From positions 62,001 through 126,000 of the forward strand of contig NZ_LANF01000006.1 of NCBI RefSeq assembly GCF_000966265.1: 64,000 nt of DNA, in the 5' to 3' direction. Below are positions 7,652 through 24,374 of this stretch, piece after piece (position 1 is the stretch's first letter; every line of letters starts with the position of its first letter). This stretch comes from Palaeococcus ferrophilus DSM 13482 (GTDB lineage Archaea > Methanobacteriota_B > Thermococci > Thermococcales > Thermococcaceae). The position numbers and the translations under genes are program-made. A model generated the notes under the pieces. It saw only the letters and a list, made by a program, of their open reading frames with translations. It did no database searches and was not told where the DNA came from.

Positions 7652-8056
7652 ATGAAGTACAGAAGAGGGGCGAGTGCTGAGAGGGAGCTCATAAAGCGGC
7701 TTGAGGAGAACGGCTTTGCAGTGGTGCGCTCGGCGGGAAGTAAAAAAGTGGACATCGTGGCCGGCAACGGCAGGAAATACCTCTGCATCGAGGTCAAGAG
7801 CACGAAGGGGGACAGGATATACCTGAGCGATGAGGACATCGAAAAGCTGACCTCCTTTGCGGGCCGCTTTGGGGGGGAGGCGTACATAGCGGTGAAGTTC
7901 ATCGGGGATGGGTGGAGCTTCTTCGAGCCCAAAAGCCTCCCGAAGAGCGGAAAGAACTTCAGGGTGGATAAGAAGCTCGCCAAATACAAGGCGCTCACGT
8001 TTGAGGAGGTTATAGGCGTTCAGAAGAGCCTCTTAGAGGTGGTGAAAGGTGAATAA
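7652..8056 (+). CDS. hjc: Holliday junction resolvase Hjc
   Basis: A 134-residue archaeal Hjc nuclease, which cuts four-way DNA junctions in recombination and fork repair. The N-terminus [19 protein letters not shown] carries the catalytic Glu. [20 protein letters not shown] carries the D and ExK residues of the PD-(D/E)XK core. Length is typical. It is divergent from sir2. The stop overlaps the GTG start of the next gene by 8 bases. Confidence 0.96.
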
Positions 8057-9620
8057 GTGGATAATACCGTTCATAATAGCCATGCTCATTCTCCCTGCGT
8101 CATTCTCTACCGGAGAGGCCGTTATCGTTCTCCAGCCGCTCCAGACATCATTCACTGGCGAGCCGGGGGAGAGCGTTGACGTTGCCTTCAACATAACCAA
8201 CATGGGCAACGAGACCGCCGGGAACGTTCTTGTACTCATAGAGAACCTGCCCGAGGGCGCTACATATACCCAGGCCGTTTTCAAGGACGTCGGTCCCAAC
8301 GAGACAAGGGAGGGCCACGTTCAGATAATCCTCAACAAGGTTCGCGCCGGAGTTTACAACGTAAACCTCGTGGCGAGGGTCACGGGACAGCCGGGACTGT
8401 TCAAGGTGCCCCTCACTCTGAGGGTGAAGACGGTGGTGGACTACTCGCCCGTTATCGAGGTTGAGGACAGGTACCTCTACGGAAGCGACGTGACGGTAAG
8501 CTGTGAGGTGCGCTCGAACTCCAACGGGGTGATAAACGGCCTTATTGAGATAGAACTCTACAGGGGGAAGGAGCTCCTCAAAAGGATAGCCGAAAGCACG
8601 TACATCGCCCCCTACGACAAGAAGGAGTACCGCATCGTTCTGCCGAAGCCCGACACCGGGAGCTACCTCGTGGTGATGCACACCAAGTTCGGGAGTGAGG
8701 AGAAGACGGTGAGTAAGTCCTTCGAGGTTTACAGGAGGAACCTCGCCTATGAGGCCTACTTCGAGAACGGGGTTATAACCGTCAGGGTGTACAACGAAGA
8801 GGGCAAGGGGGTTGAGGGAATTCCCGTTAACGTGAACGGAATGGCCCTTAAGACGGACTCCAACGGCCTCGTCATGATCGAGGCAAAGGAACCAGGGAGC
8901 TACCGCATAACCATGGACTTCGATGGAAAAACCGTCGAGACCGTTGTGGAGGTAAAGAAGCTCTTTTTGGACTACTCCCTCTCCAACGAGATGCTTGAGG
9001 TGTACGTCAGGGACTCGAGCGGGAAGGGGATAGCCAACGTGAGCGTGTCCGCGGAGGGCGTTAAGGGGAGGCTTTACGGTGTCACCGACGAGGATGGAAG
9101 CGTCGCTTTCAAGGTCTCGCAGCTCGGCTACGGACCGGTCAGGATAAAAGCCCAGAGCTCACACTTCCTCGGCGATGAAAAAACCCTGAACATCCCGCGC
9201 CCCACCACACCGACCCCCACACCAACTCCCACGGTAACCGAGACAGTCACCTCCACACCAACGCCCACCGAGACGCTGAACGTCACAAACACCACGATAC
9301 CCACGCTCCCCGTGGAGGAGGGAAGAAACTACGGCACGCTGGCCCTGATACTCCTCCTGTCCGCTCTGACCCTGACGGGGAGCTCCTACATGGCCTTCTT
9401 CAGGCCGGTTATAATGGAGGAGCAGCTGGACAGGTACTACTTCATAAAAGTGCGGGCGCCGAAGCTGAAGAGTATGAAGGAAGTTAACATCATCAGAGAA
9501 GTCAACGCCGTGGATGCCCGCGCCACAAAGGGAAAAGTAACTATAGACGGTAGCAGAATAGTGTGGGAAATCGAGGAGCTGGAGCCGGAAGAGGAAGCCT
9601 CCCTCCAGATCCTTCTTTAG
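8049..9620 (+). CDS. Cell-surface protein with CARDB/Ig-like domains and C-terminal membrane anchor
   Basis: A 523-residue exported protein. The signal peptide (IIPFIIAMLILPASFS) is followed by a CARDB-like beta domain (about 30-120, VDVAFNITNMGNETAGNVLV), then two to three Ig-like or carboxypeptidase-regulatory-like modules. Two of these share a YEAYFENGVITVRVYNEEGKG / VEVYVRDSSGKG pattern. A Thr/Pro-rich stalk (about 385-425) precedes one membrane segment (GTLALILLLSALTLTG), which leads to a tail of about 75 residues. Sequons are frequent. The GTG start at 8049 lies inside the hjc end, where GGTGG provides the site. The role is unknown, probably an envelope adhesin or scaffold. Confidence 0.82.
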   Translation: MNKWIIPFIIAMLILPASFSTGEAVIVLQPLQTSFTGEPGESVDVAFNITNMGNETAGNVLVLIENLPEGATYTQAVFKDVGPNETREGHVQIILNKVRAGVYNVNLVARVTGQPGLFKVPLTLRVKTVVDYSPVIEVEDRYLYGSDVTVSCEVRSNSNGVINGLIEIELYRGKELLKRIAESTYIAPYDKKEYRIVLPKPDTGSYLVVMHTKFGSEEKTVSKSFEVYRRNLAYEAYFENGVITVRVYNEEGKGVEGIPVNVNGMALKTDSNGLVMIEAKEPGSYRITMDFDGKTVETVVEVKKLFLDYSLSNEMLEVYVRDSSGKGIANVSVSAEGVKGRLYGVTDEDGSVAFKVSQLGYGPVRIKAQSSHFLGDEKTLNIPRPTTPTPTPTPTVTETVTSTPTPTETLNVTNTTIPTLPVEEGRNYGTLALILLLSALTLTGSSYMAFFRPVIMEEQLDRYYFIKVRAPKLKSMKEVNIIREVNAVDARATKGKVTIDGSRIVWEIEELEPEEEASLQILL

Positions 9621-10438: not shown

Positions 10439-10569
10439 ACCGCTCCCCATGGTGCATGGGGGAGAGCGTTTAAAAACCTTCTCCGAAAGAATAGAACATG
10501 AACCACCGGAACGTTCTTTTCACCGCGTTCCTAAAATATGCCGGAGTGAATGTAAGCATGGTGGGGAAG

Positions 10570-11703
10570 ATGGAGTGGAAGGCCGTTGGTGTAATAATGA
10601 TGATACTCACCGCGCTCATACCACTGGGTCTCTCCAGCGACGAGCCGGAAGTTAGCGGGCTTATGAAGACCCTTGAGGGAGCACACCTGCTTGCAGAGGA
10701 GTGGATAACACCGCTAAAAGACGAGCTCCCCGCGGATTCCCCAATTCTTAAGGACTACTCTCTGGCAGAGGAGTACAGAACCAAGGCCCTCGACGCTTTC
10801 TCAAATGGCGACGAGGTTGCTGCAAGGGAGTACGCGTTGAAGGCGCTCCACAGCTACCGTCTGGCCCTTGAGGGGGTCAAAGAAAGCGGGGAGACTTACA
10901 ACGCCAGCGCGGAGAGGGTGAAGGCTGGACTGGAAAGGCTTAACGCATACTTCACCCGGGCGGAGGAGCTTATACGCTCGGCTAAAAGGGGAGGCCTCGA
11001 CACGTCGGATGCCGAGAAACTCCTGAGGGAAACAAGGGATTCCTACTCCCAGGCCCTGCACGAGCTCAAGGAGGGAAACGTCGAGGGGGCCCGCAAGAAG
11101 TTTGAGGAGGCCGAGTCAAAGAGGAGGGAACTCGATAGTGTTCTCAAGGAGCTTCAGGAGCGGAGCCTAAAGGAGCGGGAGCACGACTTCGTGAAGGCGT
11201 TTCTGGTAAAAACGGAGAGGGGATTGTGGGCCGCGAGAACCTACCTAGAGGCAGCTAAGAACAGAGGGCTGGACGTTTCAAGGGCCGAGGAGAGGCTCGC
11301 CAAGGTTGAGGGGGCCTATCTAGCGGTGAAGACGCTGGCCGAGGAAGGCAGGTGGGACGAGGCCCTAAGGGCGATGAAGAAAAACGCGCCAATCTTCACA
11401 GCTTTCTTTGAGGAACTCAGGCGCGTGGAGCACATAATGGACGGTAAAAGCTTTCCGAACGTCCAGAGCTTCCAGGAAAATCTGGGAGAGCGGGTGCGGA
11501 AGGATACCCTCGCCCTCGAGGCCCTGAAGAGGAGGGGCGTGAACACGGTTCCGGCCGAAATAGTGCTCAGGAACGCCGTGATGGAACTCCAGACCGGGAG
11601 GGAGCTCCTCAAGCGCGGGGAGCCCGAGAAGGCCAGGGAGCACTTCCTGAGGGCGCTGGCGCTGCTGAAGAGGGTGGAGGCATTCATAGGGGAGAAGAGC
11701 TGA
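10570..11703 (+). CDS. Secreted helical-repeat protein, partner of membrane regulator (copy 1)
   Basis: A 377-residue exported protein with a short signal peptide (MEWKAVGVIMMILTALIPLG). The rest is almost all alpha-helix and charged. At least three copies of a repeat of about 45 residues are visible: RGGLDTSDAEKLL..., RGLDVSRAEERLA... and RGVNTVPAEIVLR.... Each ends with a GxxExA helix (EGNVEGARKKF, EGRWDEALRAM, RGEPEKAREHF). The frame is open from 10498, but GGTGGGG just upstream favours the ATG at 10570. It lies 9 bases before the membrane-anchored winged-helix gene. The same arrangement, with a related helical protein, recurs at 18066-20339. Confidence 0.78.
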   Translation: MEWKAVGVIMMILTALIPLGLSSDEPEVSGLMKTLEGAHLLAEEWITPLKDELPADSPILKDYSLAEEYRTKALDAFSNGDEVAAREYALKALHSYRLALEGVKESGETYNASAERVKAGLERLNAYFTRAEELIRSAKRGGLDTSDAEKLLRETRDSYSQALHELKEGNVEGARKKFEEAESKRRELDSVLKELQERSLKEREHDFVKAFLVKTERGLWAARTYLEAAKNRGLDVSRAEERLAKVEGAYLAVKTLAEEGRWDEALRAMKKNAPIFTAFFEELRRVEHIMDGKSFPNVQSFQENLGERVRKDTLALEALKRRGVNTVPAEIVLRNAVMELQTGRELLKRGEPEKAREHFLRALALLKRVEAFIGEKS

Positions 11704-11712
11704 GGTGGTAGA

Positions 11713-12555
11713 ATGAAGAAGGCGGCTCTAATCACTCTCCTGCTCATAATTCTTCCCCTTGCGTCGGCCCAGTATACCGCTGAGCTCTCCCTAACGGTCT
11801 ACAGGGACGGCTACGTCGGCGTTGATATAAAAATAGTCCCGGATGAGTACACGGCACAGGTCAGCATCCCCCTGCCCGGGAGCACCTACGAGAGCCTCTT
11901 CGTTGTGGATGAGGAGGGAAACCCCCTCGACTACTCCGTGGAAGGTGGCACGATGGTCATAAACACGGGGAACGCCTCCCTCGTGGAGGTGAGCTACTAC
12001 ACCCCCGACCTCACCACAAAAGCAGGCCCGGTGTGGACTTTGAGCTTAAACAGCAGCGTCCCCTTCACCGTGGTTCTGCCCGAGGGCACCACGGTCGTGG
12101 ACCTGAGCGACGTGCCCCTCTCAATAGCGGGGGAGAACATAACGATGCCCTCCGGAAACCAGAGCATAAGCTACGTGCTGAGCGCGTCCGTTAACGTGGA
12201 GGAGCCGTCTCCCTCAGGCAGCTCATACACGCCCGCCATAGCTGTTATCCTCCTTCTCTTTGCAGCTCTCGCCGCGGGGGTTTACCTACGGCGCCCGCGG
12301 GAGAAAGGGGAAGAGAAACCCCTGGACAAAGATGCCTACCTAAAGAAGATGGAGGGGTTTGAGCTCAACGACTACGAGAGGGATGCGCTCCTCTACATCC
12401 TCGAGAGGGGCGGCAGGGCCAGCCAGGCCGAGGTAAGGAAAGCCCTCGACATACCCAAAACCACAGCGTGGAGGATGTTCAAGCGCCTCGAGAAACAGGG
12501 GCTGGTGAAAATCGTCAAGGGGTCAAAGGAGAACTGGGTGGAGCTCAAACCCTGA
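11713..12555 (+). CDS. Membrane-anchored winged-helix regulator with extracellular beta domain (copy 1)
   Basis: A 280-residue one-component regulator candidate. The layout is a signal peptide (KKAALITLLLIILPLASAQ), an outside domain of about 150 residues made of beta strands with a sequon-rich end, and a membrane segment (AIAVILLLFAALAAGVYL) followed by RRPR. A cytoplasmic linker leads to a winged helix (residues about 225-280: RDALLYILERGG, SQAEVRKALDIPKTTAWRMF, LEKQGLVKI). The helix is of the archaeal type in which the recognition helix reads PKTTAWRMFKRLEKQGLV. The paralogue at 18066 has the same domain order. The ligand or stimulus and target promoters are unknown. Confidence 0.82.
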   Translation: MKKAALITLLLIILPLASAQYTAELSLTVYRDGYVGVDIKIVPDEYTAQVSIPLPGSTYESLFVVDEEGNPLDYSVEGGTMVINTGNASLVEVSYYTPDLTTKAGPVWTLSLNSSVPFTVVLPEGTTVVDLSDVPLSIAGENITMPSGNQSISYVLSASVNVEEPSPSGSSYTPAIAVILLLFAALAAGVYLRRPREKGEEKPLDKDAYLKKMEGFELNDYERDALLYILERGGRASQAEVRKALDIPKTTAWRMFKRLEKQGLVKIVKGSKENWVELKP

Positions 12556-15785: not shown

Positions 15786-15884
15786 AACTATGCATATTTT
15801 TTGCCATTAAAAATAACCCACCGTAATGTTTAAAACCACAATATCTTATAAACCCTAAACCGTTAATTCCCGGGGGGTGTGAGA
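15786..15884. promoter_or_regulatory. Divergent promoter region rli1/metG
   Basis: This gap holds TATA-like elements for both directions, such as ATCTTATAAACC near 15842-15853 for metG (about 30 to 40 bases before the ATG) and AATGTTTAAAACC near 15824. A strong GGGGGGTG precedes metG. No operator palindrome is obvious. Confidence 0.4.
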
Positions 15885-18062
15885 ATGAGGTACACCGTGA
15901 CATCAGCGTTGCCTTACGCTAACGGGCCAATTCACGCGGGGCATCTGGCTGGGGCCTACCTTCCGGCGGATATCTTCGTGCGCTACCTCCGCCTGAAGGG
16001 TGAGGAAGTGATTTTCATCTGCGGAACGGACGAGCACGGGACGCCGATAACATTCCGCGCGCTGAAGGAGGGCAGAAGTCCGAGGGAGATAGTTGATGAG
16101 TTCCACGAGCACATAAAGACGACCTTTGAGAGGGCGAAGATAAGCTTCGACTACTTCGGGAGGACTGAGTTACCGGTTCACTACAGAATAAGCCAGGAGT
16201 TCTTCCTCAAGGCCCTTGAGAACGGCCACCTCGTTAAAAAGGTGAGCAAGCAGGCCTACTGCGAGCACGACAAGATGTTCCTCCCTGATCGCTACGTGAT
16301 AGGCACGTGCCCCTACTGTGGCGCCGAGAACCAGAGGGGGGACCAGTGTGAGGTCTGCGGGCACCCCTTAACTCCCGAAATCCTCATCAACCCGCGCTGC
16401 AACATCTGCGGCAACCCGATCACCTTCAAGGACTCGGCACACTACTACATCCGCATGGGGGATTTCCAGGAGAAGCTCAAGAAGTGGGTCGAGGGGCAGG
16501 AGCACTGGAAGCCGAACGTGCGCAACACCGTCCTCGGCTGGATAAACGAGGGGCTCGAAGAGAGGGCCATGACGCGCGACCTCGACTGGGGTATTCCCGT
16601 TCCGCTCGAGGACGAGGATATTAAGGGAAAGGTGCTCTACGTCTGGTTCGAGGCTCCCATCGGCTACATCAGCATAACCGTGGAGCACTTCAAGCGCCTC
16701 GGCGAGGAGGAGAGATGGAAGGACTTCTGGCTCAGGGGAAGGAGCAAAATAGTCCACTTCATAGGCAAGGATAACATACCCTTCCACGCCATATTCTGGC
16801 CGGCCTTCCTCATGGCCCACGGCGGGGACTGGGAGCTGCCCCACGACATCCCCGCGAACGAGTACCTCCGTCTTGAGGGCAAGAAGTTCTCAACGAGCAG
16901 AAACTGGGCCATATGGGTTCACGAGTTCCTCGATGCGTTCCCTGCCGACTACCTCAGGTATTACCTCACCGCAATAATGCCCGAGACGAGGGACAGCGAC
17001 TTTTCCTTCGCGGACTTCAAGGCGAAGATAAACGATGAGCTCGTTAACATCCTTGGAAACTTCGTGCACAGGGCCCTCACCTTCGCCAACCGCTACTTCG
17101 ATGGGGCCGTTCCGGAAAGGGGCGAGCTGGACGAGCTCGACAGAGAGGCCTTTGAGGAGATAGAGAAAGCTTTTACCGAGGTCGGAGAGCTCATAGCGGA
17201 GTACCGCTTCAAAGATGCACTCAAGAGGGTTATGGCGCTCGCGGCATTTGGGAACAGGTACTTCGACTATAAGAAGCCATGGAAGACCGCTAAAGAGAAC
17301 CGTGAGAGGACTGCCACAACGGTCAACGTCTCGCTCCAGATCGTTAAGGCCCTCGGGATACTCCTCGAGCCGTTCCTGCCGGATGCAAGCGAGAAGATAT
17401 GGCACCTCCTCAACCTCGAAGAGGTTAAGCGCTGGACCTTCGAGGAAATTCCCGCAGGCCACCGCGTGAGGCAGGCAAGCCCGATGTTCAGGAAGGTCAC
17501 GGACGAGGAGATAATCCACTTCATAGTTAACTACATCGGAAGGGGCAACCCCGAGAGCGCAAGAACGCTCCTCGACAAGTACTACAGGAAGGACGACGTG
17601 GTGAAGGTCACGCTCGAACGCTTCGGCGAGGGGAGGAAGGACGAAGCCCTTGCGCTCCTCAAGGCCATCTACGGCGAGGAGGCATTTAGCAAGCCCAAGA
17701 AAACCAAAAAGAAGGAAAATAAGGAGGGTAAGAAGATGGAGTACGTCAGCTTTGATGAATTCATGAAGCTCGACCTCAGGGTCGGAAAGATAATAGAGGT
17801 TAACGACCACCCCAACGCGGACAAGCTCTACGTGGTCAAGGTTGATCTTGGAGATGAAGTCAGACAGCTGGTCGCTGGCCTGAAGAAGTACTACAAGCCG
17901 GAGGAGCTCCTCAACCACTACGTCGTCATCATAGCGAACCTCGAGCCCAAGAAGCTCCGCGGTGTGGAGAGCCAGGGAATGCTATTGGCAGCGGATGACG
18001 GCGAGCGCGTGGCTTTACTCATGCCGGACAAGGAGCTCAAGCTCGGCTCAAGGATAAGGTAA
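15885..18062 (+). CDS. metG: Methionyl-tRNA synthetase with C-terminal tRNA-binding domain
   Basis: A 725-residue MetRS. The class I HIGH-type motif is PIHAGHLAG near residue 17, and the KMSKS-type motif is GKKFSTSRN near residue 330. Zinc-knuckle cysteines occur in CPYCGAENQRGDQCEVCGH and CNICGN. The anticodon domain (about 380-560) is followed by a Lys-rich linker (KPKKTKKKENKEGKK) and a Trbp111/EMAP-II-like OB domain starting at MEYVSFDEFMKLDLRVGK. In some archaea that domain is a separate gene; here it is fused. The ATG at 15885 is used, as a GTG two codons earlier is unneeded. Confidence 0.97.
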   Translation: MRYTVTSALPYANGPIHAGHLAGAYLPADIFVRYLRLKGEEVIFICGTDEHGTPITFRALKEGRSPREIVDEFHEHIKTTFERAKISFDYFGRTELPVHYRISQEFFLKALENGHLVKKVSKQAYCEHDKMFLPDRYVIGTCPYCGAENQRGDQCEVCGHPLTPEILINPRCNICGNPITFKDSAHYYIRMGDFQEKLKKWVEGQEHWKPNVRNTVLGWINEGLEERAMTRDLDWGIPVPLEDEDIKGKVLYVWFEAPIGYISITVEHFKRLGEEERWKDFWLRGRSKIVHFIGKDNIPFHAIFWPAFLMAHGGDWELPHDIPANEYLRLEGKKFSTSRNWAIWVHEFLDAFPADYLRYYLTAIMPETRDSDFSFADFKAKINDELVNILGNFVHRALTFANRYFDGAVPERGELDELDREAFEEIEKAFTEVGELIAEYRFKDALKRVMALAAFGNRYFDYKKPWKTAKENRERTATTVNVSLQIVKALGILLEPFLPDASEKIWHLLNLEEVKRWTFEEIPAGHRVRQASPMFRKVTDEEIIHFIVNYIGRGNPESARTLLDKYYRKDDVVKVTLERFGEGRKDEALALLKAIYGEEAFSKPKKTKKKENKEGKKMEYVSFDEFMKLDLRVGKIIEVNDHPNADKLYVVKVDLGDEVRQLVAGLKKYYKPEELLNHYVVIIANLEPKKLRGVESQGMLLAADDGERVALLMPDKELKLGSRIR

Positions 18063-18065
18063 AAA

Positions 18066-19019
18066 CTAAAGGTTGAGCTCCACCCAGTTTTCCCTCTTTT
18101 TCTTGTATACCCTAACCAGCCCCTGCTTCTCGAGGCGCTGGAACATTCTCCACGCGGTTGTTCTCGGTATTCCCAGCATCTCCCTAACCTCGGACTGCTT
18201 TGCCCTCCCTCCGCGGTCGAATACGTAGAACAAGGCCTTTTCCTCGTCCTTTGTCAGCTCGTACTGCCCGAGCAGTCTTTCGAAGTCCTCCCTGCTTATG
18301 CCGGGGGACGACGTCTTCTTCCCATCTCTTTTGATGTAGGCAAACCCCGCCACCCCAAGGATCAGGAGAGCCGTTAAACCGGCGAGCAGTGCCCCGCTTC
18401 CCGGTCTCCCCGGGGGGGCTTCATTTTGGGACACTGTTCCACTCACGTTTAAGGGGGCCTCAGTGGAGGACGTGCCAACAGGACCTCCCACAGGCGATGA
18501 CGTGGGTGAGGATACCGTTTTTGCCCCGTCCGTCCGGTATTTGATGACGTAGGAAATGCTCTGATTGCCAGGGGGCATCAGAAGGGAGTTCCCATTTATC
18601 TCAAGGGGTATGTCCGTCAGGTCAACTATAACCGCACTCTCGGGGAAGGTTACCCTAACCGCTACGTCGGAGGAAAAGTGAACACCCCATATGGAGCCGT
18701 TCTTGGCGGTTAAATCAGGGGTGTAGTACGTAATCCTGAGGGGGGTGGCGTTTTCAAAGTAAACTATGAGCCTGCTCCCGTTTACCTCGTAGGGCACGGG
18801 GTTTCCGATTTCATCAACGACGGTTAGACCCTCAACGTTCGGGGTAAGGAGAGGAATGGAAACGCTCACGGTGTAGTTCTCGGGCTGAACTGTTTGGGCC
18901 ACCCTAACGTATCCGTCGGTGTAAACAGTGAGCTCAAGTGATTCGATGGCGTACTGCCCCGCAACCACGGGGATGAGCGAAAGGAGTACGATAACCACTG
19001 CCACCAATTTAGCCCTCAT
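18066..19019 (-). CDS. Membrane-anchored winged-helix regulator with extracellular beta domain (copy 2)
   Basis: A 317-residue paralogue of the protein at 11713. It has a signal peptide (AKLVAVVIVLLSLIPVVAG), then an external beta-rich domain with closely matching segments (QYAIESLELTVYTDGYVRV, ITYYTPDLTAKNGSIW, IPLEINGNSLLMPPGNQS). A Ser/Thr/Pro stalk precedes a membrane segment (GALLAGLTALLILGVAGFAYI), then Lys/Arg and a cytoplasmic winged helix (SEVREMLGIPRTTAWRMF, RLEKQGLVRVYKK). The ATG follows GGAGGTG. It lies downstream of a secreted helical acidic protein on the same strand (60-base gap), mirroring the pair at 10570-12555. Confidence 0.82.
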   Translation of the reverse strand: MRAKLVAVVIVLLSLIPVVAGQYAIESLELTVYTDGYVRVAQTVQPENYTVSVSIPLLTPNVEGLTVVDEIGNPVPYEVNGSRLIVYFENATPLRITYYTPDLTAKNGSIWGVHFSSDVAVRVTFPESAVIVDLTDIPLEINGNSLLMPPGNQSISYVIKYRTDGAKTVSSPTSSPVGGPVGTSSTEAPLNVSGTVSQNEAPPGRPGSGALLAGLTALLILGVAGFAYIKRDGKKTSSPGISREDFERLLGQYELTKDEEKALFYVFDRGGRAKQSEVREMLGIPRTTAWRMFQRLEKQGLVRVYKKKRENWVELNL

Positions 19020-19079
19020 CCCAACACCTCCAGAAATTTGGCGTTACTGCTTTAAAAAGATGACCAAAAGAGGAGGGAC

Positions 19080-20339
19080 TCACTGCCCCTCCTCGTCCCC
19101 TTCCTCGTGATCATCGCTCTCGTTTCCATCCCCGCTGTTCATCTTGTCCGAACCGTCGCTCGGATTTTGCTCCTCTTCGTATTCCTCGCTCTGATTCTGG
19201 TCCCCGGGGGTATCGCTCTCAGAGTACTCACCATGCTGTTCCGTATCTTCCTCGTCTTTCTCCATGCGCTCCTCTTTCTCTTCCTTTTCCTCGTGATCCT
19301 CGTCCTCTTCCCATTCCTCTTTCTCCTTGTGGTACTCCTTCTCTATCTCCCTTGTTTCCTCTATTATGTCCTTTAGTTCATCATTGATATCGTGCAACAT
19401 GTCGAGCGCTTCCTCATACTGCCCCTCCTCAACCAGTGCGTTGAACTCCTCGTACATCGCCTGAAGTTCCTCAAGGTTTTCCTGGAGGTCCGTTGAGTTC
19501 ACAGTGGAGTTTTGGAGCGTGGATATGAGCTCCTGCATGAGCACCATCTGCCCCTGGAGTTTTTCCACAAATGTCTGGCTTATCTCCTCCGCCCTTGCGT
19601 CCACTATCTGCTCCGAAAGCTCCTCAATGGCGTCCTCCAACTTATCCTTGAGCTCCTTGGCGTACTCAAGGTCGCCCTCTAGTGCGGTAAGGTTACCGTT
19701 GGCAATGTCCTGTGCAACCACTGTATACGCGGCCTTGGTCGCGTTGTAGAGTTCCTCAACGGGTGTTACATCAATGCCCTCGCTCCTGCCCTCTTCTATC
19801 ACCCTCTCGGCGTAGGGGAAGTATTCCGCAGACCTCTGGAGCTCCTCCTTCGCGTCGAGGGCAAGCCCATAGTACTCCTCCTCAGACTCCATTTTGGATT
19901 CCCCGTGCTCCTTATAGTATTCGGTCAGCTCCTCCACGACCTCTTTATAGAGGTACAGGGCAGACATTGAGGCGTTTATGCTCTCGCTGTAATTTGCCGC
20001 GTTGTAAAGCTCCCACGCCTGTGCCCTAAGCTCCTCTGCCTGAATGTAGAGTTCGAGAGTCTCGTTTGGAATGGTCGAATTGTTGGCCCTAAGATCCGCC
20101 ATCAGGCCCGTCGTATAGTTGGCGACGTTGTCAACTATCACGAGCATGTTGTATGCCATAGTAATGGTTGTGTTGGTCTCGTTCGTGGTTATGTTTGACG
20201 TGCTGCTGGACAGTGTCTGGTTGGCCACCTCTGGAGTACTGGTTTCCGTTGCGTTGATGCTCGCTGCCCACGCCGCCGTGCTCAGCGGTATCAGTGCCCC
20301 CATAAACAGTACAATCAATATTCTTAAGTTGCCCCTCAT
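19080..20339 (-). CDS. Secreted helical protein with extreme acidic tail, partner of membrane regulator (copy 2)
   Basis: A 419-residue exported protein: a signal peptide (MRGNLRILIVLFMGALIPLS), a Thr/Asn-rich segment with many sequons (NATET, NQTLSS, NITTNETNTT), then long amphipathic helices likely to form a coiled coil (about 60-330). A tail of about 90 residues is almost only E, D, K, H, S, N and G. One segment (EGRSEGIDVTPVEELYNATKAAY) matches the repeat of the 10570 protein. The ATG at 20339 follows CAGGTGAGAACC. The tail suggests binding of divalent cations or of basic surface material; this is inference. It precedes the membrane regulator gene. Confidence 0.76.
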   Translation of the reverse strand: MRGNLRILIVLFMGALIPLSTAAWAASINATETSTPEVANQTLSSSTSNITTNETNTTITMAYNMLVIVDNVANYTTGLMADLRANNSTIPNETLELYIQAEELRAQAWELYNAANYSESINASMSALYLYKEVVEELTEYYKEHGESKMESEEEYYGLALDAKEELQRSAEYFPYAERVIEEGRSEGIDVTPVEELYNATKAAYTVVAQDIANGNLTALEGDLEYAKELKDKLEDAIEELSEQIVDARAEEISQTFVEKLQGQMVLMQELISTLQNSTVNSTDLQENLEELQAMYEEFNALVEEGQYEEALDMLHDINDELKDIIEETREIEKEYHKEKEEWEEDEDHEEKEEKEERMEKDEEDTEQHGEYSESDTPGDQNQSEEYEEEQNPSDGSDKMNSGDGNESDDHEEGDEEGQ

Positions 20340-20538
20340 GGTTCTCACCTGTATTCAACTAGGAAAAGCATGTATATTAGGAACATGCTGAAATTACCGT
20401 GTTTCAAAATGTTTCTACGTGTTTCTTTGGCCGGGATATTCCCATGTGGCAACTACTAACTCTCTTACAGTCCCCTCACTCCTCACGCCCACTCCTCCTG
20501 CTCAAACAAGCACCCTTTCTCAACCGACATCCTTAAAC

Positions 20539-22640: not shown

Positions 22641-24374
22641 ATGAAGGTAAGGAAGATCGCGGCCCTCGCAGTTGGTGCCGCAATGATTGGCGCAACCATG
22701 GGATACGCCAGCGCTCAGCTCAACGTCCCGAAGGACTTCTTCGTTAAGGACGGAATGCCCAACGCTAAAATCGTGGTTGGAAGCAACGCAGCCGCTATGG
22801 ACGTTGCCAGCGCGGCCGACATAGCCGTCGCCATAGGAAGCATGCTCTACACGGCCGAGGAGGTTCAGGCCGACGGTGTGAGCGTTGTCGTTAAGAAGGA
22901 CATAACCACCTACCCCGACCCGATAAAGGTTTACAGCAACTGGTACGAGGACTACGGTACCGTAACCGCTACCAAGTACGATGAACTCCCCACCGACGCC
23001 TGGTGGAACGGAAGCGCCTACAACGGCAGCTACACCGACTGGGACGCCATAACCCCCAAGTTCACCACTGAGATTGAGAACATGGACTCAATCAAGGGCG
23101 ACAAGCAGATTGACTGGGACATCAACATTGACAAGATAATGATCCTTGACAGCGACGGCAAGACCCCTGACCAGACCGGTAACCTCCCGCCCAAGAGTGC
23201 CACCCTTAAGATACCGGCCGGAAACTTCACCATCACGTTCAACTTCGTCATCAAGAAGTGGGAAGTCACCACCAGCAGCACCGACCCGCAGTGGGGTCTC
23301 ACCACCACGAGCACCGAGACCGTCGTTGACGACGACCAGCCAAGCGGAGGCGTTGAGAAGGAGACCGTTTACAGCGGCATAACCTCCGGCACGACCTTCA
23401 CGCTCCTCGGCAACGAGTACTACGTCCTCAACGTCCAGAACGACACCCTCACCTACGGTAAGGACCACGGCGTCCAGTGGTTCCACGTCGGCGACGAGAT
23501 GGAGTTCGACGGCTACAAGATACAGGTCGTTGACATAAGCATCAACGAGCAGAGGGTCCTCCTCAGGGTCACCGCCCCCGACGGAAGGAACGACCTCGTC
23601 ATCATAAGCGTTACCGACGGCGAGAAGGACGTCAGCGAGCTCTCAACCAAGTTCAACCCCGGTGAGCTCGTCCTCACGCTCGACAACACCTTCGTCGGTA
23701 TTGACGGAAACCTCATCGCCCAGCTCGAGATAAGGACCAACGTCGTCTCAGTCAGCAGCGGCGATGAGTTCATTTCAGGCTGGACCGCCACCTTCCTTCC
23801 GGGAACTGGCAACACCATCGAGACCATCGTCCTCACCAACAAGAACGACCTCAGCGGAAGTGACCTTGACATCCTCGGCAAGTACAAGGTCTCCTACGAG
23901 TTCCACGAGTGGACCAAGACCGCCGACTTTGACAACGACGGTGAGGCCGACGACACCAGGTACACCGCCAAGGCCCAGATCGTCATAGACCCGACCGAGA
24001 AGGTCTACGACGAGAAGGAGCTCAAGGTCGGCGACGAGCTCGAGGGCTGGAGCATCGAGCAGATCAAGGGCGCCACCTACACCAAGATAACCGTCAACCC
24101 GGCCGAGAGCATAACCGTCCTCGACACCGAGGTTGACCTCAACGCCGTTGACAGCAACCTCATCCTCGTCGGCGGACCGGTCGCCAACAGCGTCACCGCC
24201 TACCTCGTTGACCAGGGACTCAGCCAGATCAACTGGTACCTCAGCGATGGAGACATCGAGTTCATTGAGAACGCCTTCGGCGACTTCTCCGTCATCATCG
24301 TTGCCGGTAAGAACAGGGAGAGCACCAGGGCTGCCGCCCAGGAGCTCCTTGACTACCTCAAGGACCTCGCTTGA
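22641..24374 (+). CDS. slp: S-layer protein
   Basis: A 577-residue exported protein, the main cell-surface lattice protein. The signal peptide (MKVRKIAALAVGAAMIGATM) is followed by NVPKDFFVKDGMPNAKIVVG, a pattern shared by euryarchaeal S-layer proteins, where residues after the signal bind the envelope. The C-terminal QELLDYLKDLA also matches. Codon use is strongly restricted (AAC, GAC, CTC, ACC dominate), as expected of a highly expressed gene. Sequons such as NGSAYNGSY are present. A strong promoter and leader precede it, and a membrane-anchored companion follows. Confidence 0.94.
   Translation: MKVRKIAALAVGAAMIGATMGYASAQLNVPKDFFVKDGMPNAKIVVGSNAAAMDVASAADIAVAIGSMLYTAEEVQADGVSVVVKKDITTYPDPIKVYSNWYEDYGTVTATKYDELPTDAWWNGSAYNGSYTDWDAITPKFTTEIENMDSIKGDKQIDWDINIDKIMILDSDGKTPDQTGNLPPKSATLKIPAGNFTITFNFVIKKWEVTTSSTDPQWGLTTTSTETVVDDDQPSGGVEKETVYSGITSGTTFTLLGNEYYVLNVQNDTLTYGKDHGVQWFHVGDEMEFDGYKIQVVDISINEQRVLLRVTAPDGRNDLVIISVTDGEKDVSELSTKFNPGELVLTLDNTFVGIDGNLIAQLEIRTNVVSVSSGDEFISGWTATFLPGTGNTIETIVLTNKNDLSGSDLDILGKYKVSYEFHEWTKTADFDNDGEADDTRYTAKAQIVIDPTEKVYDEKELKVGDELEGWSIEQIKGATYTKITVNPAESITVLDTEVDLNAVDSNLILVGGPVANSVTAYLVDQGLSQINWYLSDGDIEFIENAFGDFSVIIVAGKNRESTRAAAQELLDYLKDLA

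Follow-up and report, generated by a model that had tools for sequence, protein, structure and literature searches.

Paired genes for an exported helical protein and a membrane winged-helix regulator, with a candidate common operator, in Palaeococcus ferrophilus DSM 13482 and other Thermococcaceae

The window analyzed here, a stretch of 64,000 nucleotides from Palaeococcus ferrophilus DSM 13482, encodes two modules (A and B) in which a gene for an exported helical protein is followed by a gene for a membrane-bound winged-helix regulator. Comparison of sequences across the Thermococcaceae shows the module, the pairing of its two genes, the architecture of the regulator, and a palindromic operator that is associated with one recognition helix (TTAWRMF) and recurs at genes for LamG-domain proteins. 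We consider it probable that the module is an autoregulated and cross-regulating membrane one-component switch of surface genes in which the helical protein acts as co-sensor; operator binding, the sign of regulation, the contact between the partners, and the signal are what we infer in this reading.

Module B is encoded on the minus strand. Its regulator (18066..19019; 317 aa) comprises a signal peptide (residues ~1-21), an external beta-sandwich (residues ~22-160; 18540-18956) followed by a low-confidence linker, a transmembrane (TM) helix (residues 209-230; 18330-18395), and a winged helix (residues 241-317; 18069-18299) with the recognition helix TTAWRMF at residues 287-293 (18141-18161). 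The helical partner (19080..20339) has an N-terminal signal or hydrophobic segment, helical hairpins, and an acidic C-terminal tail; its longest ORF opens with a GTG at 20348, and the ATG at 20339 is preceded by a GGTGA ribosome-binding site. Module A, on the plus strand, comprises a helical partner (10570..11703) and a regulator of 280 aa (11713..12555) with the architecture of regulator B and, again, TTAWRMF; the longest ORF of the helical partner opens at 10498, and the start at 10570 is preferred because the promoter falls within the longer ORF. The modules face each other, 5.5 kb apart, and between them lies, on the plus strand, a gene (15879..18062) that we take from its sequence to be metG, for methionyl-tRNA synthetase; it is a conserved neighbor and stands outside the switch. 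Module A also adjoins a gene (8049-9620) for an exported protein with a Thr/Pro-rich stretch and a C-terminal TM segment, a homologue of which was found in only two of the 82 fetched regions.

An earlier note on this DNA had described 18066-20339 as the second of two diverged copies of one module, each pairing an exported protein with a membrane regulator that has an external domain. This is borne out by BLASTP (E 5e-71 and 42% identity for the regulators in an alignment of 297 columns; E 2e-16 and 24% for the helical proteins in one of 236 columns), by shuffle controls (z = 23 for the winged helices and 10 for the helical proteins), and by the structure model discussed below. The external domains, on whose homology the note had staked its reading, are diverged but homologous (z = 27 against shuffles) and keep a common conserved core; the motifs YYTPDLT, GNQSISYV and TTAWRMF are present in both regulators. 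The near-identity claimed for the winged helices applies to the recognition helix, which is identical, but not to the rest of the domain: only 40 of 77 positions are identical, a fraction scarcely above that of the external domains (67 of 138). These counts do not bear out the idea that A and B differ chiefly by faster evolution of the external domain; a slower rate of change in the winged helix is seen between orthologues, for example in clade B, where the winged helix is 92% and the external domain 80% identical and where 50 of 55 pairs have the more conserved winged helix. A measurable difference between A and B lies in the operator spacing, so they may have diverged in their wiring as much as in their input. 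Furthermore, A and B are not the only copies: the 2.2-Mb source genome (G000) carries four modules, of which C (contig C19) has a full regulator with 48% identity to regulator B, and D (contig C11) lacks the winged helix.

The structure of regulator B, aligned with 27 relatives, was modeled with AlphaFold (pLDDT mostly >90 in the external domain and the winged helix), and the structure alignments drew on 24 loci from a profile search of contigs. The Pfam scan and the model place a wHTH, a TM helix, and an external domain in one protein, with the external domain N-terminal and the wHTH C-terminal (241-317 of 317). The modeled external domain has, over its whole length, the fold of the M1/M61 aminopeptidase N-terminal domain (1z1w, Z 11.8), which is also that of domains of ribophorin I/Ost1 (Z 13.6 with rmsd 4.7 over 157 residues; 7oci_A by VIA, Z 13.2 with rmsd 2.6 over 138 residues); the best Foldseek E was 3.7e-5. 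Unlike these proteins, with which it shares ~10% identity, it is part of a regulator, and no catalytic metallopeptidase domain was found in regulators A and B by Pfam scan or in the model of regulator B; the kinship of fold proves no function, and the most that it suggests is a surface that faces proteins or peptides. The winged helices match both TrmB (PF01978; 31.5 and 36.5 bits, cut-off 25.6) and DUF7343 (PF24034; 30.0 and 27.7 bits, cut-off 27.6). Proteins of the TrmB family have a C-terminal sugar-binding regulatory domain; a TrmB sugar sensor is rejected for the module, since no sugar-binding domain was matched at E 1 and the regulator is a membrane protein with its wHTH at the C-terminal end. 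Homology of the external domain to DUF7345 (PF24036) is likewise rejected, there being no match in the regulators or elsewhere in their genome, with control matches in Haloferax volcanii.

For the helical partner B an all-helical structure of hairpins is predicted (mean pLDDT 75.8), with a disordered acidic tail, and its sequence contains 17 N-glycosylation sequons. A fold search of the PDB returned nothing under E 0.001; its 157 weak matches (best E 0.41) were dominated by long helical proteins, and the top matches in a sequence search of solved structures were only designed or repetitive helical chains.

Matches to the regulator family (alignment A4, E 1e-5) were obtained in 89 of the 94 genomes of the Thermococcaceae and, elsewhere in the phylum, in 9 of 21 genomes; in seven of these nine a helical gene stands beside the regulator. 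The sample studied consists of 100 regulators, namely those in 82 chosen fetched regions and the window, with weaker matches and those on small contigs excluded. A gene of the helical family lies directly upstream of 86 of the 100, and of two more after correction of a misassigned ORF start; six others (class E) are preceded by a divergent gene whose product looks helical but escaped the profile. The remaining six (class F; L056, L058, L060, L062, L064, L068) are directly downstream not of a helical gene but of a DUF134-like gene, i.e. one for a sigma-region-4-like HTH, as judged by a Pfam match run on one of these six neighbors. The regulator tree contains clades A, B, C, D, S, T, E and F, some of them modestly supported (139 columns). 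When the tree of the helical proteins is labeled with these clades, the label changes six times, which is the minimum for seven groups (mean of 46 when shuffled); the helical tree returns the groups of the regulator tree, so the partners are inherited together. In 15 fetched regions two modules follow one another in tandem on the same strand at a distance of 0.9-1.8 kb, and in three regions of another genus, which also contain metG, two modules oppose each other at 6.3 kb; a homologue of the metG protein of the window is encoded in 47 of the 82 fetched regions. Two variants were also observed: a regulator that is split into two frames (67 and 233 aa) by a frameshift or a sequencing error (L086 8902-9857, genome G028), and, in genome G007, a 330-aa protein (L177 1462-2454, minus strand) that joins a TM segment and a winged helix at its C-terminal end to an exported domain of another kind, which resembles, by eye, cell-wall-binding repeats; this protein apparently follows the plan of the regulators with another sensor.

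Alignment of the DNA upstream of B-clade helical genes revealed GAAAC repeats 10 bp apart, ending in GTTCC-TAATATA. The common form of this predicted operator is GRAAC-N5-GRAAC, a central gap, and KTTYC-N5-RTYCC, followed directly by TAAAATA, TCAAATA or TAATATA; this TATA-like box sits about 25-40 bp upstream of the start codon. Operator B (20373..20425, minus strand) reads GAAAC-N5-GAAAC-N5-GAAAC-N6-ATTTC-N5-GTTCC (half-sites at 20421-20425, 20411-20415, 20401-20405, 20390-20394 and 20380-20384) and then directly TAATATA (20373-20379), and it is the only good site within the window. The degenerate operator A (10508..10538, plus strand) reads GGAAC-N4-TTTTC-N5-GTTCC and then TAAAATA; it keeps three half-sites, no first half-site can be recognized at ~10498, where one would be expected, and across the full 34-bp pattern it has 4 mismatches. 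The 34-bp pattern with the 4-bp gap (N4) is present with at most one mismatch upstream of 50 of 88 helical genes; the lowest value among 1760 shuffles was 3 mismatches, which a single shuffle reached. The central spacing differs by clade: 4 bp in A (38 of 45) and D (10 of 10), 6 bp in B (10 of 11, with the third half-site also in 10 of 11), 5-6 bp in C (7 of 8), 15 bp in S (6 of 7), and 14 bp in T (7 of 7). These two counts exclude classes E and F, both of which are included in the association with the recognition helix, for which four spacings were allowed and a score of 3 or less was taken as a site (1 of 1000 shuffles). So defined, the operator is predicted at 66 of 77 modules with TTAWRMF, at 10 of 10 without a winged helix, and at none of 13 with another recognition helix (six of class E, five of class F, and two single A-clade rows); a Fisher value for this association is too strong because the rows are not phylogenetically independent. 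Among the 11 TTAWRMF modules that score over 3 are window A (4) and one F-class row, and the GRAAC operator is absent at all six class-F loci.

Clade D bears on whether modules act on one another. In P. ferrophilus, its protein (188 aa) keeps the external domain and ends in CGPALIGLLAILPLAMRKSL, which aligns with positions 1-19 of 20 of the CGP_CTERM model at 19.5 bits (cut-off 21); the winged helix is replaced by a CGP-CTERM-like tail in this genome, and by a plain membrane anchor in the other nine of ten. All 10 D-bearing genomes checked also carry an A regulator with TTAWRMF, and in G078, G080 and G084 the A module is the only other module fetched beside D. The loss of the winged helix, together with a clade-A operator and an A regulator in 10 of 10 cases each, argues for cross-regulation, and the A regulator probably controls clade D modules in trans. 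The same clade also suits a different explanation, which we consider possible but distinctly less likely than a switch: the helical protein and the beta-sandwich would form a surface complex (a scaffold, a chaperone, or a glycan/peptide-handling unit), and the winged helix would serve as an autoregulatory stock sensor only. Clade D retains the helical gene, the external domain, and the operator without the winged helix, and the external pair may therefore be useful without signaling. Most of the strong sites, moreover, are module promoters, but the sites at unlinked genes for LamG, ABC, PMT_2-type, and small proteins exceed what pure stock control would need.

These sites were located genome-wide. 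The N4 pattern, with at most one mismatch, occurs in 67 of 94 Thermococcaceae genomes (one match for the reversed-pattern control), and the pattern with the 6-bp gap (N6) at 22 distinct sites in the family (9 control matches). Of the latter, 20 belong to promoters of B/C-type modules (16 of these lie within fetched regions, and 4 were assigned by a distance of ~1.4 kb from a regulator), one precedes a LamG gene in G069, and one is unassigned. In the P. ferrophilus genome, the N4 pattern was found at a LamG gene, at a gene for a 112-aa protein (or the divergent AIR-synthase-like gene), and at module D. The N6 pattern was found at module B and at module C, and a further site that departs from it by 2 mismatches precedes a gene for a 126-aa helical protein. 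At the LamG locus (L236 8772-9659, contig C4) the site is a perfect palindrome on both strands, 39 bp upstream of a gene whose N-anchored product of 271 aa contains a Laminin_G_3 domain (44.6 bits against a cut-off of 27.6). LamG genes are downstream of a site in six genomes (G000, G008, G031, G064, G068, G069), those outside G000 being called by likeness to the G000 protein, the one on which Pfam was run. All 17 strong 4-bp sites that lie outside the fetched module regions and at some other place than ~1.2-1.5 kb ahead of a matched regulator were examined: five precede LamG genes (G000, G008, G031, G064, G068), four further helical genes, three a gene for a 110-123-aa protein (G000, G001, G090), two a gene for an ABC-exporter-like ATPase (G089, G093), one a gene for a PMT_2-type membrane protein (G001), and one a gene for an exported protein of at least 556 aa (G063); one is ambiguous (G033). 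Beside the modules, the predicted targets are mostly surface or envelope genes, most often for an N-anchored LamG-domain protein, and to this extent the envelope interpretation of the earlier note stands. As side observations, the 110-123-aa protein (L237 9053-9439, L239, L272) follows the site, a divergent AIR-synthase-like gene opens across the site from it in G000 and G001, and the 126-aa helical protein (L049 2346-2802, contig C19, with the N6-like site upstream) resembles, by eye, one hairpin of the helical partner of the module.

It is improbable that the GRAAC array is bound by another regulator of the Thermococcaceae, with the membrane regulator controlling other sites. Binding by the membrane regulator is an assumption in our reading, window A has a poor site, and in G008 the LamG site coexists with two fetched regulators that have other recognition helices (TTTWRIL and TTAWRMV), all of which would fit such an arrangement. 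Against it, neither kind of site was found in the five family genomes that lack the regulator (G035, G061, G073, G076, G088; three of the five are incomplete), the site is missing at every module with a changed helix, and the spacing follows the regulator clade. Less probable still is the view of the earlier note that two envelope sensors with distinct inputs are tied to the neighboring S-layer gene (22641-24374; S_layer_MJ, 267.7 bits): the gene is close by within the window, but none of the 82 regions fetched from the P. ferrophilus genome and its relatives encodes a homologue of its protein, and its promoter, which has a strong-looking TATA box, scored 6 mismatches on the operator scan, i.e. 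the level of shuffled sequence (median 7), and regulation of the S-layer gene was rejected on both grounds.

In the switch that we favor, the regulator would be made with a signal peptide and would hold its beta-sandwich outside and, after one membrane crossing, its winged helix inside; the TTAWRMF helix would read GRAAC half-sites, and two or more subunits (a dimer or tetramer) would bind the palindromic array. Because the array ends at the TATA-like box of its own operon, the module would regulate itself. Repression appears likelier than activation since the half-sites abut the presumed TFB/TBP site, and we lean toward a regulator that blocks, rather than recruits, TBP/TFB. The helical protein, exported from the same operon, would most likely bind or modulate the external domain and so report the state of the envelope; we regard its modulation of the external domain as evenly balanced with the contrary, and we give an origin of the signal in the envelope an equal chance of being right or wrong. 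The helical partner may instead be structural or enzymatic cargo. Paralogues would have the half-site in common, and clade-specific spacing would limit but not abolish cross-talk, and the A regulator would probably act in trans on clade D, which lost its winged helix and kept the clade-A operator. More tentatively, and at somewhat less than an even chance, this may extend to a lineage-wide co-component system in which paralogues with the same helix are separated by operator spacing (4, 6, 14, 15 bp) and copies without a winged helix are trans-controlled surface parts; if true, there would be a spacing code that both insulates and links envelope sensors.

Among known systems, the module resembles the co-component transmembrane transcription regulators (coTTRs; ToxRS, VtrAC, PsaEF), which are described in PMC13042144 as having an N-terminal wHTH, a TM helix, and a C-terminal external domain, together with a partner composed of an N-terminal TM segment and an external beta-barrel domain. 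Common to both are a winged-helix membrane factor with one TM helix and an external domain, an external partner from a neighboring gene, and paired evolution, which in the module is seen as co-inheritance; in contrast to coTTRs as portrayed there, the module is archaeal, has its winged helix at the C-terminal end and its partner gene first, and its partner consists of helical hairpins instead of a broken beta-barrel (PMC13042144). The membrane-bound one-component regulators ArnR/ArnR1 of Sulfolobus control surface structures (PMC6396743; PMC13286277), and are thus alike in being archaeal membrane regulators with surface-gene targets, predicted ones in the case of the module (PMC6396743). Excerpts from these sources place the HTH of ArnR in its N-terminal region, report its phosphorylation by ArnC, and make no mention of an exported partner, whereas the module has a C-terminal HTH and such a partner (PMC13286277; PMC6396743). 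No publication on the module or its operator was found by title or abstract in literature searched without most subscription journals, and the predicted operator in front of helical genes is a new result.

To our knowledge, envelope sensing in the Thermococcales is poorly charted. The near-universal family of membrane regulators described here has a partner that is exported, an operator that can be read, and a surface target that recurs, and it lends itself to experiment in laboratory strains of Thermococcus and Pyrococcus that are genetically tractable; the common operator makes the targets of control predictable across related species, and the modules provide a natural series for asking how paralogues with one recognition helix stay separate.
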